A stretch of DNA of 64,000 nucleotides. Origin: Nitrospira sp. KM1. Lineage in GTDB: Bacteria; Nitrospirota; Nitrospiria; Nitrospirales; Nitrospiraceae. The notes below the pieces were generated by a model. The model did not search any database. It had not been told where the DNA came from and saw nothing but the letters and a program-made list of their open reading frames with translations. Position 1 is the first letter of the stretch, and the number at the start of each line of letters is the position of its first letter. Position numbers and translations under genes: made by a program. Where the stretch lies: positions 3,472,001 through 3,536,000 of the forward strand of contig NZ_AP022671.1 in the NCBI RefSeq assembly GCF_011405515.1. Reading direction: 5' to 3'. Below, piece after piece: positions 7,716-13,596 of the stretch.

Positions 7716-7736
7716 CACGAAAAAGGAGACGTGATT

Positions 7737-8219
7737 ATGGCCGGATTGATGTCGGCGGAAGATGTGTTCGAGAAGGTTCAGGCAGCGGCGGTTGCCGCGA
7801 CCAGTCCAGATGAAAAGGCCTTACAGATCGACTATCCCTCGCTCAAAACGAAGATCCAAGCGGCACTCGGAGACCGGAAAGTCGCATTGTGCCATGTGAA
7901 TCGCTTTCTTCCGGAAGGCTATGAGGATCAAGGGCGATTCAATCTCGTCCTGCTCACTGCGGGGAACGTCGCATTCGATATCGTCATCGGCGATTCCTAT
8001 TTCCGCTATGACGTGGTCTCGGTCGGCCAGCTGGACAAGGTGCAGGTAATCGACGCGATGTGGGACAACAAGGAAAAGCGCCGCGAGGAGCCGTTCCTCA
8101 GTTTGCGGCTGATGCACGGCGAAGAAGCGCATCTTCTGCTGGCGCTGGATGACGACGAACGCAAGAGCTTGCTGGCATTTGCGAAGGCCGTTTCGATAGC
8201 GCGCAATCCAGAACGCTGA
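7737..8219 (+). CDS. Hypothetical cytoplasmic protein
   Basis: This 160-residue soluble protein shows an N-terminal helix rich in Ala and acidic residues, then alternating strands (FNLVLLTAGNVAFDIVIG, FLSLRLMHGEEAHLLLAL) and a final helix. No domain is recognised. The ATG at 7737 is preferred to the GTG at 7731 because AAAAGGAG is eight bases before it. It may be in an operon with the preceding membrane protein. Confidence 0.6.
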   Translation: MAGLMSAEDVFEKVQAAAVAATSPDEKALQIDYPSLKTKIQAALGDRKVALCHVNRFLPEGYEDQGRFNLVLLTAGNVAFDIVIGDSYFRYDVVSVGQLDKVQVIDAMWDNKEKRREEPFLSLRLMHGEEAHLLLALDDDERKSLLAFAKAVSIARNPER

Positions 8220-8364
8220 GCATGATTCTGTAGAAGAGACTCTCAAGCCTTTTCTTTCGGCTCGCGGGTGTCCGGGTGGTGAAGCCGGAGATTGAAAAAT
8301 CCAGGTGTCCTATTCTTCCCATACCTCCGCAGCCAGCGGCAGCTCGTTTAACTCTGCCCTGACC

Positions 8365-9026
8365 TCACGCCCATGACGGGTAGTATTTTGCCAGCAGCGT
8401 GAGAAACTGCTCGCTGTGGGTGGGCGCTATCAGATGCAGCATCTCGTGGGCCACCACATACTCGAGCAGATCCTTCGGCTTTTTCACGAGCTCAGTATTT
8501 AGGCGGATGTTCCGTGCCCGGTAGTTACAACCGCCCCACTTGGTCTTCATGCGCTGGAGAAAGTACCCGGCTACCTCGACGCCCAGTTTGTGCTCCCATT
8601 TGCGGATCAATCCGGGTACTGCATCGTGCAGGAGTGATGTGTGCCACTCGTGCATGATCGCCTCGCGCTTCGACCTGCTACTGTTGGGACGCACGGTGAG
8701 CATGATCCGGCGGTGACTGAGTGCGACCGAGGGTCTCGTGTCTTTCTCCCTGACAGAGAGCAAATAACGCCTTCCCCAGAGGGAGTGGCTTTCACGCTCA
8801 ATGAACTGGCGGGGCGTTTCCTGGCCTGTCCGCGCATCTGCGACTGTTTCTCACGTATCCAGCCGAGTCTGGAAATCGCATAGGCACGAACCGCTTCCGG
8901 TCGTGTACCCTTCGGCACGACCAGCGTGACGCGCCCGTCCGGTGGATGTACCGACAGGTGGACATGCTTGATTTCCTTGCACGTCACAGCGACGGCGATC
9001 TCACCCAGTTGAATAGTCTCAGTCAT
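8365..9026 (-). pseudogene. YgjP-like zinc metallopeptidase (DUF45/M48-type), frameshifted
   Basis: Two overlapping frames together encode one YgjP-type protein. The N-terminal frame runs from the ATG at 9026 to about QMRGQA; the second frame continues with ETPRQFIERES, then WGRRYLLSVRE, RPNSS and WGGCNYRARNIRLN, and ends with the zinc-site helix HEMLHLIAPTHSEQF (HExxH). The break is close to 8820, where the minus strand reads GCCAGGAAACG; one extra G would restore a continuous reading. The start overlaps the stop of the HsdR fragment as TGATG, which matches the known habit of this peptidase gene following hsdR in type I restriction loci. It is either a real pseudogene or a one-base sequence error. 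Confidence 0.8.
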
Positions 9027-9540
9027 CAGTACCCTGGCTGGTTCTTGACCAGCTCAAAGAGCGCGAGGGTGGCCTTGCGGTCACGATTGAGCAATGGGAA
9101 CAGTGCGTTCAGCACCTGGGCTTCGCGCGCCTGGTCGCCCTTCCAGCCCGCAGGCGCTCTCTCTCGAATAGTACGGTCAATCTCTAAGGCCAACTCAACG
9201 CGCTCGTTTCCGTAGGCAGGGTGAGACTCAGCTATCACTGAATCCCGGTCCTGCTCCACCGCGAGAATCCGCGGCAGGTTGTTATAGATCACAACTGCCT
9301 CTCGTTTGCCATGCAGGGCTGAAGGCACACCCGCTTCGGGCTGCTTCTTCGCGAGCCGCTTCACCAGTACTTCGGCCTTACGCAAAAACTCCTCGTAGGC
9401 CGCCGTGTCGGCCCGGCTCTGCTGGATCAGATCGTCGAGCAGCTTTGACATCTGGTCGTAGAAACGGGGATCGGTAAGCCGGTCGCGGAGGATGGTCTTG
9501 CGGACGTTGTTGATGATCCCTTCGGCGAAGGTCTCTGCCA
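9026..9540 (-). pseudogene. C-terminal fragment of type I restriction endonuclease subunit R (HsdR)
   Basis: About 170 residues in a minus-strand frame match the plan of the HsdR C-terminus: IINNVRKTI, then DPRFYDQMSKLLDDLIQQ, AAYEEFLRKAEVLVKRL, and the terminal block LALFELVKNQPGY. HsdR proteins are normally around 1000 residues, so the helicase and nuclease parts are missing. Upstream the same frame runs directly into an unrelated COG2865-like sequence, so the fragment is joined to foreign sequence. No hsdM or hsdS is present. The remnant is very unlikely to be active. Confidence 0.75.
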
Positions 9541-9770
9541 CTTCCGCCAGGGTAATCTCCGGTCGGGCCGCGAGCAACTGAAGGATTTTCACCGGCGTTT
9601 CTACCGCCGAGTCGATGGCGTTGAGGTACTCGGACGCAAAGCCGAATTGAAGCAGCAACTCGTGGCCGTCGAGTTGCAGTTGCGGCCCCGGCCTCGCGGC
9701 AGGCCTGAAAGATGCGCTGGATGCCGCGGCCCCAGGCTTCGATCTCTCCGGCCCGGAAGAAAGCGTTGGC
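9530..9770 (-). pseudogene. C-terminal fragment of a COG2865-type (AlbA_2/ATP-binding, RecG-like) regulator
   Basis: In one minus-strand frame, about 9770 to 9684 reads NAFFRAGEIEAWGRGIQRIF, the conserved block before the C-terminus of COG2865 proteins. After a frame change near 9685 the neighbouring frame continues with DGHELLLQF, EYLNAI, and ETPVKILQLLAARPEITLAEV, the typical winged-helix tail of that family. The fragment then fuses in frame to the HsdR tail near 9535. Both ends and an internal frame are therefore broken. Confidence 0.65.
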
Positions 9771-9817
9771 GCGATGAAGCCATCGAGGCTTGCGGCGGTG
9801 TAGTATTGTGTTCTCAT
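9770..9817 (-). pseudogene. N-terminal fragment of a RibD-C/dihydrofolate-reductase-like gene
   Basis: Sixteen residues from the ATG at 9817 (MRTQYYTAASLDGFIA) match the very characteristic opening of the RibD C-terminal/DHFR-like family. The match stops exactly where the COG2865-type block begins in another frame. The fragment is too short for function and marks the third partner in this gene scar. Confidence 0.5.
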
Positions 9818-9877
9818 GGTTTGGAAGGTTTGATTTGGGCGGCTCCGTGTCCCCTTCACGCGCAGAATAGGGAGCGA

Positions 9878-10798
9878 TCATGTGCCGGCGGCAAGGCAGG
9901 CAGCGATTCCCGACCGGTAGGGCGTTGGCCCGAGTCCATAGACCGCCTGGATCTTCCCGCTGTCGAACCGATAGTCGTACTCGAACTGATACATCATCTC
10001 ATCATTCTCCCTCAACACCGGTACGAACAGTCCCATCAACCGTAACATCCAGCGCGGCGCACGCTGCATCTTGTACGGGCGTCCTGCGAGATCGCAGGCG
10101 AGGCGCACGAAGTCCTCGCCGGTCAATGGCTCTGTTGTGGTCGGCACGTGCCACGTCTGCCCGCACGCCTCCGCAGACTGTCCCAGTACCGAGACTGCAT
10201 GACCAGCATCGGGCGTGTAGGTGAAGGTGTGGACCGTCTTCGCGTTGCCGACCCATTGCGGCGTTTTGCCGGCCTTCAGGCGTTCGAATACGGTGGCATG
10301 CGGGAAGCTCTGCACCGCCCCGGGTCCGTAGAAATCGGCCGCCCGTACGATCATCGCCTGCAGGTTGCCTGAACGGATCTCGTCCAGCAGCATCATCGCG
10401 ATCCGGGCCCTGACTTCACCTTTGCGGCTGCACGGGTTGAACGGGGTCTCTTCCGTCATCGGCCCGTCGACTCTGCCGTACGCGTAGACGTTGTCGAAAA
10501 AGACGAGGCGGCTGCCATGCCGCTTGCAACCGTCGATTACGTTCCGCATGATCCGCGGCCACTGCTCATGCCAGACGGCGGTGTCGTATTGCAACCCCGC
10601 CACTAGATAGGCGACATCACTGCCAGCGATGGCTTGAGCGGTCGCCGTGGGATCCAGGAGATCCGCGGGGAAGGTCTCGTCGCCGGCATTGACCCGGCGG
10701 GGCCTGCGACTCACCTGTCGAATCCGGTCAGTCGAGGCCGAGAGGCTCCGCGAAAGCTCGCGGCCGATGACACCGTTGGCCCCCAGAATGGTCTGCAT
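9878..10798 (-). CDS. NAD-dependent epimerase/dehydratase family protein
   Basis: This roughly 306-residue protein is a short-chain dehydrogenase of the extended (epimerase) type. The N-terminal nucleotide-binding loop is ILGANGVIGRELSR, a relaxed GxxGxxG. DVAYLVAGLQYD and the NVYAYGR block follow, where YxxxK would be expected but only a Tyr is clear; FYGPGAVQSF and a C-terminal substrate domain come after. AGAAGGA ahead of 10798 supports that ATG over the upstream in-frame extension. The gene is intact and begins the accessory minus-strand block. The substrate, probably a nucleotide sugar or a small carbonyl compound, cannot be told. Confidence 0.82.
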   Translation of the reverse strand: MQTILGANGVIGRELSRSLSASTDRIRQVSRRPRRVNAGDETFPADLLDPTATAQAIAGSDVAYLVAGLQYDTAVWHEQWPRIMRNVIDGCKRHGSRLVFFDNVYAYGRVDGPMTEETPFNPCSRKGEVRARIAMMLLDEIRSGNLQAMIVRAADFYGPGAVQSFPHATVFERLKAGKTPQWVGNAKTVHTFTYTPDAGHAVSVLGQSAEACGQTWHVPTTTEPLTGEDFVRLACDLAGRPYKMQRAPRWMLRLMGLFVPVLRENDEMMYQFEYDYRFDSGKIQAVYGLGPTPYRSGIAACLAAGT

Positions 10799-10886
10799 AC
10801 GGATCGTTCCTTCTGAAGCTGGCTTACGCAATGTTCAATCACGGTCTCCGGGCAAAGAACGGAAGGTTCCTAGAATCAAGGTGCTG

Positions 10887-11327
10887 TCAGGTGCCGCGTG
10901 ACGCCCGCTCCCATGACGCTACCGATCCGGGGCGAAGGCGAAACAATGGATGGTGCGCAGGATCAGTGATGCCGCACCACTTTGAAAGAAGAGGCGGGTT
11001 GCGCGTCGAGAGTTTTTTGAGAAGGTGCTGCCACTCATAGCGAATCTGTCCGTGAGACACTGGAATGTACCCAACTACCTGAATCGGGCCAACCTTGCTC
11101 CGGTCAAAGTTGTAGCCTCGCGACAGTGCTTCGACATAGATGGCATCTAGGTATGCATTGATTGCCCGGCGCGGTGAATCATGAGAAGTAAAACGCTCAA
11201 GTTGGGGGTGATGCCTGTACCCCTTGGTCTCGCCGCGAAGGACGGCTTGCGCCAATAAGGCCTCACGCCACAGCGCTACCAAACCTTGTGGATCCAGGTA
11301 CTTTGGATGCAGGGACCAGAGACGCAT
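10887..11327 (-). CDS. Pyrimidine dimer DNA glycosylase (endonuclease V-like)
   Basis: This 146-residue protein matches the Pyr_excise family by its start (MRLWSLHPKYLDPQGLVALW), by ALLAQAVLRGETKGYRHHPQL, and by the block GYNFDRSKVG; the length is normal. Proteins of this family cut the N-glycosyl bond at UV-induced pyrimidine dimers and nick the strand, or are uncharacterised relatives. The gene seems intact. It lies between an epimerase and an integron cassette, a setting consistent with horizontal acquisition. No clear ribosome binding site is seen. Confidence 0.82.
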   Translation of the reverse strand: MRLWSLHPKYLDPQGLVALWREALLAQAVLRGETKGYRHHPQLERFTSHDSPRRAINAYLDAIYVEALSRGYNFDRSKVGPIQVVGYIPVSHGQIRYEWQHLLKKLSTRNPPLLSKWCGITDPAHHPLFRLRPGSVASWERASRGT

Positions 11328-11452
11328 CGTGTCGTGGTGTCTAAATGTGTCCCGCAGGTTGCCCGTGCCGTATAGCAGGGCGTCGCCTGGAATTGTTCGG
11401 TACCAACCTTACACCGATTTATGTTCTGTGCCAGCGCCAGAAGTGAGGAAGA

Positions 11453-11623
11453 TCATGGTCGTCGGCTCAGAAGTCCGCGTGGAACAGGCCCCGCCTCTGG
11501 GGTGACCAACAGCCAATCGTCCGTGATGCATTCGGCGATACGTTCAACGTCATTGGAGATCATCGCGGCGTTGAAATGCTCTTCAAGCTCTTGAAGAAAC
11601 TGCGGGATTTCGGTCGTGATCAT
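11453..11623 (-). pseudogene. Truncated NTF2-like/DUF4440 protein
   Basis: A 56-residue frame opens with an amphipathic helix and a block ECITDDWLLVTPEAG, the N-terminal signature of NTF2-like DUF4440 proteins, which normally run to about 120-140 residues. It stops after PVPRGLLSRRP. It starts 26 bp beyond the attC site on the same strand, exactly where the next cassette gene would be expected. I read it as a truncated or frameshifted cassette gene; a functional short protein is unlikely. Confidence 0.5.
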
Positions 11624-11648
11624 TGATTCACTTCGAACACTCCCAGCC

Positions 11649-11708
11649 GCCTAACACCTGAATTAAGCCACGCCGCGAAGCGGCGTCGGCTTGAATGAAT
11701 TGTTAGGC
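11649..11708 (-). repeat. Integron attC site (59-base element)
   Basis: The minus strand shows GCCTAAC (11708-11702), then an imperfect palindrome with the core GACGCCGCTTCGCGGCGT, and GTTAGGC (11655-11649). The spacing is 60 bp, and the inner repeats TTCAAGCC and GGCTTAATT agree with classic attC recombination sites. It lies 25 bp past the stop of the DUF1905 gene, in the orientation a cassette requires. Confidence 0.85.
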
Positions 11709-11733
11709 GCGGGTCGCGATATGACGGACATTC

Positions 11734-12276
11734 CTACTCTTCGGCTTCGGGAGCGCTGAGGCTTTTGCTGTAGAACCCGGATTGATCGAAACAGCAAACC
11801 TGCTTTTTCCCGGAAGCCAGCATGGCACACGCATTCTCTCCCCGGTTTTTGCGAGTCTTTGCCCGCTTCGCGGACTCAACCCAGTGTACGCGGGCAATGG
11901 TGGTGGTGGAATCCCATACCGCCTTGGCTTCCGGGGAGGCGACAAGTGCTTCCTGGAAGTCTGACGGCAGCTTGGGCTCAGGCTCCTTCGCCACAGAAGC
12001 AATCTCTAGCATTACCGTGTCGCCTATCTTTACGCCAGAAGCTTCACGCAGCGCTTTACTGACTTTTAACCAGTGGCTCAGTTGACCATCCGGCTCTAGC
12101 GTGTCTCGAAAGGGATGACCGTTGATCGTTCCTTCTATGCTCGTTCTACCGCGCCGTGGGAGCTTTTCGCTTGCGAACTTTGGCAAAACCAGAAAAGCCC
12201 AGGAATTCTCCTCGGCTGACTTGCCTGGGCGAAGCAGTTTTGCTTTGAAGCGTGACATTTTTGTGACTTGGCCCAT
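11734..12276 (-). CDS. YdeI/OmpD-associated family protein with DUF1905 domain (integron cassette gene)
   Basis: This 180-residue protein has the DUF1905 beta-barrel part (SRFKAKLLRP, SWAFLVLPKFASEKLPRRG, INGHPFRDTLEPDGQLSHWL), then a YdeI-type linker (PKLPSDFQEAL, KAVWDSTT, RVHWVESAKRAKTR), and a C-terminal CCFDQSGFYSK block. Length and order are those of complete family members. Function is not established. ATG 12276 is used because TAGGA precedes it; 12258 is an alternative. The gene is framed by GTTAGGC at 12293-12299 and attC at 11649-11708, making a complete cassette of about 650 bp. Confidence 0.85.
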   Translation of the reverse strand: MGQVTKMSRFKAKLLRPGKSAEENSWAFLVLPKFASEKLPRRGRTSIEGTINGHPFRDTLEPDGQLSHWLKVSKALREASGVKIGDTVMLEIASVAKEPEPKLPSDFQEALVASPEAKAVWDSTTTIARVHWVESAKRAKTRKNRGENACAMLASGKKQVCCFDQSGFYSKSLSAPEAEE

Positions 12277-12292
12277 AGTTCCTACCAACAGC

Positions 12293-12299
12293 GCCTAAC
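12293..12299 (-). other. Core recombination site GTTAGGC at the upstream edge of the cassette
   Basis: The heptamer GTTAGGC is found 17 bases before the start of the DUF1905 gene and equals the R' end of the attC site downstream, as expected for an integrated cassette. The sequence above it (to 12504) does not form a complete attC or a recognisable attI, and no integrase gene is seen, so this may be insertion at a secondary site. The remaining ~200 bp to ygfZ shows nothing else. Confidence 0.55.
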
Positions 12300-12504
12300 T
12301 AATAAGTCTGCTGCAGGCGATCTGGGCAACGTAGCACGGAAACCCACGCAGTCCAGCGGCCGGCAAGTCTAAAAAGAAATCCGTCACTTATCAAGATACC
12401 ACTCCGCTTGGCCATCCCCGGATAGACTGCGAATCCCGCAGGATATCCGGGCGATGGATAGTAGCTATGCGCTGAAAAGGAAATGGTTCAGTGCAGCTGA
12501 ACGG

Positions 12505-13596
12505 CTATGTCTTCTGGTAGAAGGGCAAGGTGTAGACTGCGGCGTCGTGGCGCGTTCCGTCGATTTCGACCGACACCGCACTGCCGGCATTACTGAAGTC
12601 CCGCAAGGGGAAGCCCAACGCAATGACGGAGTTCATCTGAGGCGAGTATACGGCGCTGCTGATCCAGCCTATTTCCCGGTCTCCGCTAAAGAGCTTTGAA
12701 CCCTTCGGGGGAACAGTGGCGTCCTTCAGTACCAAGCCCACCAGCTTTCTTCTCACATTGCCGTAGGTATCCATTCGGGCCACGACTTCCTGCCCAGGAT
12801 AGCACCCCTTGTTGAGGCTGAAAGCTTTGCTCTCCAGATTGGCCTCCGGAGGCACGATATCTTCGTTGAGGTCTGCTCCGGTTCTAGGAATCCCGGCTTC
12901 GATCCGCAGGGCCTCCAGGGCTTGTCTGCCGACTGGGATGATGCCAAACGTCGATCCCGCTTCCATGAGACGTTCCCACGCCGCAACGAGACCATCGGAG
13001 GGAATCAGGATTTCAAAATCGCGTTCGCCAGTTTCTTCCGAAGCAATGATCATTGCCGATTGTCCCGCGATCGTTGCCGAGGTGAAATCGACCGGCATCA
13101 GATCGCCGACTCCGGCTCCAAATGCCGTCTGTATGACGCTTGCGGCGTGCGGGCCGCCCACGAGCAGAAGCCCCCAAGTCTCGGAACAATTTTCAATTTT
13201 GGCCTTCGTGCCGTATAAGAGAAATTTTCTGAGAGCGGCATAGGTGGCATCGCCGATTTCGCCCACATCTTCCAGTATGACGACATCTGTCTCCATATAG
13301 CACCGGAAGTACGAAATCATCTTGCCCTTATGCGTCAGGAAGCTCGAATATCGTCCTTGGCCGTGTTGGAGCGGCAGGATATCATTACTGATGATGCTCT
13401 GAAGCCATTTGATGCGGTCCTCGCCGGTGACGCGAGACTTGCCCCGGTGAGAAAGATCGGCCAGTCCCACAGATTGGCGGACGGCATGGTGTTCGCCCGT
13501 AGGGTCACCATAGTGCAAAGGGACCGTCCAGCCCGCGACTTCCTCAAAGGTCGCTCCGGATCGAGCATGATGATCGTGGAGGCGTGACGCTCTCAT
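12505..13596 (-). CDS. ygfZ: YgfZ/GcvT-domain folate-binding protein
   Basis: This 363-residue protein has the GcvT-like fold (WTVPLHYGDPTGEHHAVRQSVGLADLSHRGK) and the YgfZ signature NKGCYPGQEVVAR (KGCYxGQE) near residue 285, which separates it from true aminomethyltransferases. YgfZ proteins use folate and help assemble or repair iron-sulfur clusters, for example in tRNA-modifying enzymes. Its ATG overlaps the stop of the upstream receiver-like gene by 4 bp, so the two are translationally coupled. Confidence 0.88.
   Translation of the reverse strand: MRASRLHDHHARSGATFEEVAGWTVPLHYGDPTGEHHAVRQSVGLADLSHRGKSRVTGEDRIKWLQSIISNDILPLQHGQGRYSSFLTHKGKMISYFRCYMETDVVILEDVGEIGDATYAALRKFLLYGTKAKIENCSETWGLLLVGGPHAASVIQTAFGAGVGDLMPVDFTSATIAGQSAMIIASEETGERDFEILIPSDGLVAAWERLMEAGSTFGIIPVGRQALEALRIEAGIPRTGADLNEDIVPPEANLESKAFSLNKGCYPGQEVVARMDTYGNVRRKLVGLVLKDATVPPKGSKLFSGDREIGWISSAVYSPQMNSVIALGFPLRDFSNAGSAVSVEIDGTRHDAAVYTLPFYQKT

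Follow-up and report, generated by a model that had tools for sequence, protein, structure and literature searches.

A probable decayed chromosomal integron beside ygfZ in Nitrospira sp. KM1, with an attI leader and one complete cassette and no integrase

Background

Integrons commonly lose their integrase, with pseudogenes making up nearly a third of intI genes (PMC2426708). In Xanthomonas the integrons lie downstream of a fixed anchor gene, ilvD, and carry species-specific cassettes; intI has been lost repeatedly with the cassettes remaining, and most strains have lost IntI activity and kept integron sequences (PMC12444791). In the chromosomal integrons of Treponema the transcription of intI runs towards attI and in the same sense as the cassettes, and in T. 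phagedenis attC sites are kept without intI (PMC3607928). Elements consisting of attC sites and cassettes without an integrase are catalogued as CALINs by IntegronFinder 2.0, which reported just two of them in the phylum Nitrospira and whose default mode no longer looks for attI, a site that is poorly characterised outside class 1 (PMC9024848).

Here we analysed 64,000 nucleotides of the chromosome of Nitrospira sp. KM1 (NZ_AP022671.1, positions 3,472,001 to 3,536,000; hereafter the window, in whose numbering all coordinates are given) and compared the locus with genomes of its genus and family. The element is of a known kind, caught during decay. It shares with Xanthomonas a fixed anchor gene, species-specific cassettes and repeated loss of intI with cassettes remaining, although the anchor here is ygfZ, the intI of genus-mates points to the array and the intI of the window is wholly gone. 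As in Treponema, intI is read towards attI at related loci of the family and, as in T. phagedenis, attC is kept without intI, whereas the anchor and the sequence are different and the attI and its leader can still be recognised although intI has been lost.

Results and discussion

A complete cassette with a genuine attC

The initial annotation, made from the sequence of the window, had placed a 60-bp attC site behind a DUF1905/YdeI gene, and this reading survives a covariance search of the whole genome. The outer boxes of the palindrome at 11649-11708 form a perfect 7+7 pair (GCCTAAC...GTTAGGC), which by itself is weak evidence for an attC because 0.34 perfect R''/R' pairs would be expected by chance and one is observed. 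The structure as a whole is strong evidence, with the site folding at -19.2 kcal/mol (z -6.35, no shuffle being equally good) and representing the sole R''/R' pair with a hairpin within the 64-kb window. A covariance model that included the window attC returned the site with an E value of 4e-15 as the only match in the genome of 4,509,223 bases. As this first model had contained the site in question, a held-out model was rebuilt from 5 other sites, leaving out the window attC and one nearly identical site, and it scored 11649-11708 on the minus strand at 54.7 bits (E 1.5e-10). We conclude that 11649-11708 is a genuine attC, read on the minus strand. Rfam gave no match in 10800-12600, and a further copy of the 60-bp site was sought throughout the genome, with just chance matches of 14-18 bp returned.

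The window attC is 91-97% identical by BLAST to the attC sites of the class 1 plasmid cassettes aac(6')-IIa, sat2 and fosI, and 3,674 plasmid records match it; among phage records one P1 record alone has it in common. In contrast to those cassettes the gene in the window is unrelated, the locus is chromosomal and no class 1 intI or attI1 was found.

Upstream of the attC and in the same orientation lies an intact gene of 180 aa (11734-12276, minus strand, ATG at 12276 and stop at 11734) with DUF1905 and OmdA domains (Pfam E 5e-20 and 8.5e-14), the latter being described in Pfam as bacteriocin-protection, YdeI or OmpD-associated. The GTTAGGC core that had been noted just before the gene is confirmed at 12299-12293 (minus strand). 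With GTT cores as borders on both sides, at 12299 and 11655, the interval 11655-12298 is a complete integron gene cassette of 644 bp that runs on the minus strand from the attI core to the attC crossover (cassette 1). Relatives of the gene are common chromosomal genes, mostly of Pseudomonas among the best 80. Several of them adjoin an attC, in a Methylibium MAG with an attC on both sides (L185), in Acidovorax kalamii (L108) and at two further loci (L116 and L177), and the gene is therefore one that travels as a cassette. A relative with 80% protein identity was also seen in the genus-mate G001, where it occupies an isolated position elsewhere in the chromosome (L014:1501-2075) and is followed by just the 3' half of an attC.

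The truncated NTF2-like gene that had been reported behind the attC on the same strand is likewise present. The open reading frame beginning at ATG 11623 shares 79% protein identity with the start of a full-length DUF4440 cassette gene in the genome G084, which has an attC right behind it that is 86% identical to the window attC. Because the homology to this full-length copy ends at 11477, the interval 11477-11654 (minus strand) holds only the 5' part of a second cassette, its first third, with the start of the DUF4440/NTF2-like gene; roughly the 3' two thirds of the cassette and its attC are lost. We did not find the DUF4440 fragment on plasmids. We considered whether the whole of the stretch beyond, 8220-11476, might consist of cassettes; a search of it for attC found none. 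A Pyr_excise gene (pyrimidine dimer DNA glycosylase-like, 10887-11327) adjoins the truncated cassette and shares its orientation; it is present in 2 of the 172 family genomes with the window genome counted, and its sole relative in the family (G105) has no attC nearby. Further along, a YgjP-like metallopeptidase gene at 8368-9026 seems to be split across two reading frames.

An attI leader in front of the cassette

The initial annotation had seen neither intI nor attI; the first half of that statement holds, and the second gives way to an attI leader at 12292-12450. The 155 bases before cassette 1 are homologous to the leader that lies between intI and attI in intact integrons of the same family. 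One such comparison is with G101, of another genus, which encodes an intact integron integrase (TIGR02249, 456.9 bits) and whose leader starts 42 bp past the stop of intI and ends in the core; window positions 12450-12292 match it at 78% identity over about 160 bp (E 2e-33). On the minus strand, the leader opens with an imperfect palindrome, GGATATCCTGCGGGATTCGCAGTCTATCC (12420-12448), that is conserved after intI in G101, G003 and G002, and further contains GCCTGCAGCAGACTTATTAGTTAGGC and a promoter-like TTGATA-N17-TAGACT (12366-12394). The latter, found by a consensus scan and kept in most leader copies, is a candidate for the cassette promoter Pc, with the caveat that scans for promoters and terminators carry little weight on their own.

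In an alignment of 25 leader copies the 20 bases preceding the core have a conservation of 0.85 and the GTT one of 0.92; the value falls to 0.69 in the next four bases and is 0.40 further on. Such a drop past the crossover base would be the pattern expected of an attI with differing cassettes behind it, and attC sites do lie behind several of the copies. From the leader homology and this drop we place the end of a putative attI at 12293-12318 (minus strand), with its core at 12299-12293 and the crossover between 12299 and 12298, and cassette 1 would accordingly sit at the primary site.

An insertion at a secondary site, the alternative raised by the initial annotation, does not agree with this placement. 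It would have one or two cassettes joined by a trans-acting IntI into an attG-like site that was never an integron, which suits a single attC and a genome without intI in the window or elsewhere, and the lone G001 relative with its half attC shows that cassettes can be found in isolation within the genus. The roughly 160 bp before the core are nonetheless homologous to integron leaders, and pieces of intI lie in the orthologous gap of two genus-mates, so that we regard such an insertion as highly improbable.

The leader is present in 34 of the 172 family genomes. Several genomes have multiple copies, most without a complete intI (L087-L090 in G014, L091 in G101, L092-L093 in G044), and G014 has four copies with no IntI above the search threshold.

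Absence of the integrase and its erosion in the family

A genome-wide search for IntI gave no TIGR02249 match above the cut-off, which bears out the description of the locus as an integrase-less remnant; the two best integrase candidates score highest with tyrosine recombinase, XerD and XerC models and fall far below the IntI cut-off. No trace of intI is left in the 64-kb window. Set against a complete integron, the locus has an attI next to the first cassette, by homology, and no intI in the locus or the genome. The term CALIN-like array, also offered by the initial annotation, is right as to the missing integrase, the window having attC and a cassette without one as CALIN elements do (PMC9024848), but is not quite fitting, as there is one complete attC where the default threshold is two and an attI is present.

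Elsewhere in the family intI can be found in front of the leader at different stages of loss. It is complete in G101, is reduced to residues 173-315 in G089 and has internal deletions in G014 (L088; residues 1-67 plus 237-315 kept) and G003; the last 52-71 residues are kept at the second copy of G101 and in G100, G044 and G118, the last nine or so in G039 and G135, and none in the window and others. In the G003 pseudogene (L031:9401-10046) the N-terminal part is fused to the sequence at about residue 258, and the break points of loci with the last 52-71 codons lie near residues 245-264. From the end of the longer intI tails to the end of the leader there are about 195-211 bp, a nearly constant spacing, and in at least 10 loci intI or its eroded 3' end precedes the leader at such a distance.

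This spacing bears on whether the 160-bp leader might have nothing to do with integrons and be a dispersed repeat or a promoter element that came to lie beside the cassette by chance. Such an element could well be present more than once in a genome, as the leader is (the maximum is four copies, in G014, with no IntI above threshold), yet the nearly constant distance to intI, the halt of conservation at G^TT and the attC sites behind several copies make it barely credible.

Most copies without intI are 52-80% identical to the consensus, with one exception at 90%, and several of those with larger intI remains reach 87-89%, G002 and G003 being exceptions. Because most intI-less copies are further from the consensus than those with larger intI remains, the leader appears to be decaying; selection on the leader after intI loss was considered and is not supported by these figures, which fit decay.

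The ygfZ-anchored gap in the genus

The leader of the window begins about 55 bp past the stop of a ygfZ/gcvT-like gene (12505-13596, minus strand; YgfZ domain NCBIfam TIGR03317 above cut-off) with orthologues of 68-76% identity in all 7 genus genomes. Between this anchor and a second conserved gene (7731-8219, plus strand), whose orthologues stand beside the gap wherever genus contigs reach, lies a variable gap, 8220-12504 in the window. Integron remains with an attI-like site fill it in 5 of the 7 genomes, two of these with a broken intI. In G003 there are a broken intI, attI and attC sites, and in G002 a 3' piece of intI and attI, readable up to the contig end; G001 and G005 have an attI-like site and attC matches without intI. 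In G004 and G006 the gap is nearly empty with the two anchor genes about 30 bp apart, and while both are draft assemblies, in each of them a single contig carries ygfZ together with the next gene. Where readable, the first genes differ among the filled gaps. The cassette is thus not fixed among relatives, a point on which the initial annotation had made its reading depend: it is absent from the orthologous gap in each of the 6 other genomes of the genus, which for G002 covers the gap as far as its contig extends.

In both G002 and G003 intI at the ygfZ locus is directed towards attI and the array, and this inverted order recurs in 9 of the 10 family loci that have intI or a piece of it together with attC. 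G044 contains both arrangements, with intI and cassettes diverging in the usual way at L051 and in inverted order at L050. With intI gone from the window its orientation is read from these relatives, and the element would be a sedentary integron of the inverted kind.

The leader itself complicates the comparison. Over about 160 bp it shares 78-79% identity with the copies in G014 and G101, which belong to other genera, and just 44-55% with those of genus-mates at the same locus, which hints at an exchange of platforms between lineages. Because of this closer resemblance to other genera we retain, as unlikely, the arrival of attI leader and cassettes as an intI-less block from another lineage by homologous or other recombination, replacing an older ygfZ integron; leaders without a complete intI are also common in the family. 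Such a replacement is at odds with the position of the leader just past the ygfZ stop, as expected from deletion of intI in place, and with the intI pieces in the same gap of genus-mates, and the poor conservation of the genus-mates' leaders can equally be decay.

A proposed history of the locus

Taken together, we think it likely that a sedentary chromosomal integron stood at the ygfZ anchor and has since decayed, with its integrase deleted and its cassette frozen. Three observations count against this: the window has no trace of intI, the leader is nearer to those of other genera, and 8220-11476 is without attC. In its working state intI would have stood beside ygfZ, read in the same direction as ygfZ and followed by the leader of about 160 bp with its promoter-like sequence and attI. 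Circular cassettes would have been joined into attI by IntI through attC x attI recombination and would have piled up away from ygfZ, in the direction of intI, giving the inverted arrangement. One deletion would then have taken out the whole of intI in place and another cut the array, leaving attI, the promoter-like sequence, cassette 1 in full (the DUF1905/YdeI gene and its attC) and the beginning of the second cassette. Since the genome has no IntI, the cassette would now be fixed and could move only with an IntI from outside. It is probably still transcribed from the old promoter-like sequence.

A broader possibility concerns the family as a whole. The attI-promoter platforms may outlive their integrases, several per genome, and act as multiple docking sites on which a single IntI encoded elsewhere would work in trans, the window platform being a former member that is now without an IntI. 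G101 has an intact IntI together with a second attI leader that has an eroded intI and attC matches, and G044 has two IntI and two leaders without an intact intI. We put this forward only tentatively and consider it improbable.

Conclusions

Comparison of leaders across the family allowed an attI to be recognised after the loss of intI, and the same comparison finds such leaders in 34 of 172 genomes; among those examined, the majority have no complete intI adjoining. It also supplies a concrete series for the decay of an integron, from a full intI through an internal deletion, a 52-codon tail and a 9-codon tail to nothing. The wider pattern, in which a genome has several attI leaders that lack a complete intI, is worth following. 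Since the window attC is nearly identical to the attC sites of resistance cassettes on plasmids, the environmental members of this family seem to draw on the same pool of cassettes.
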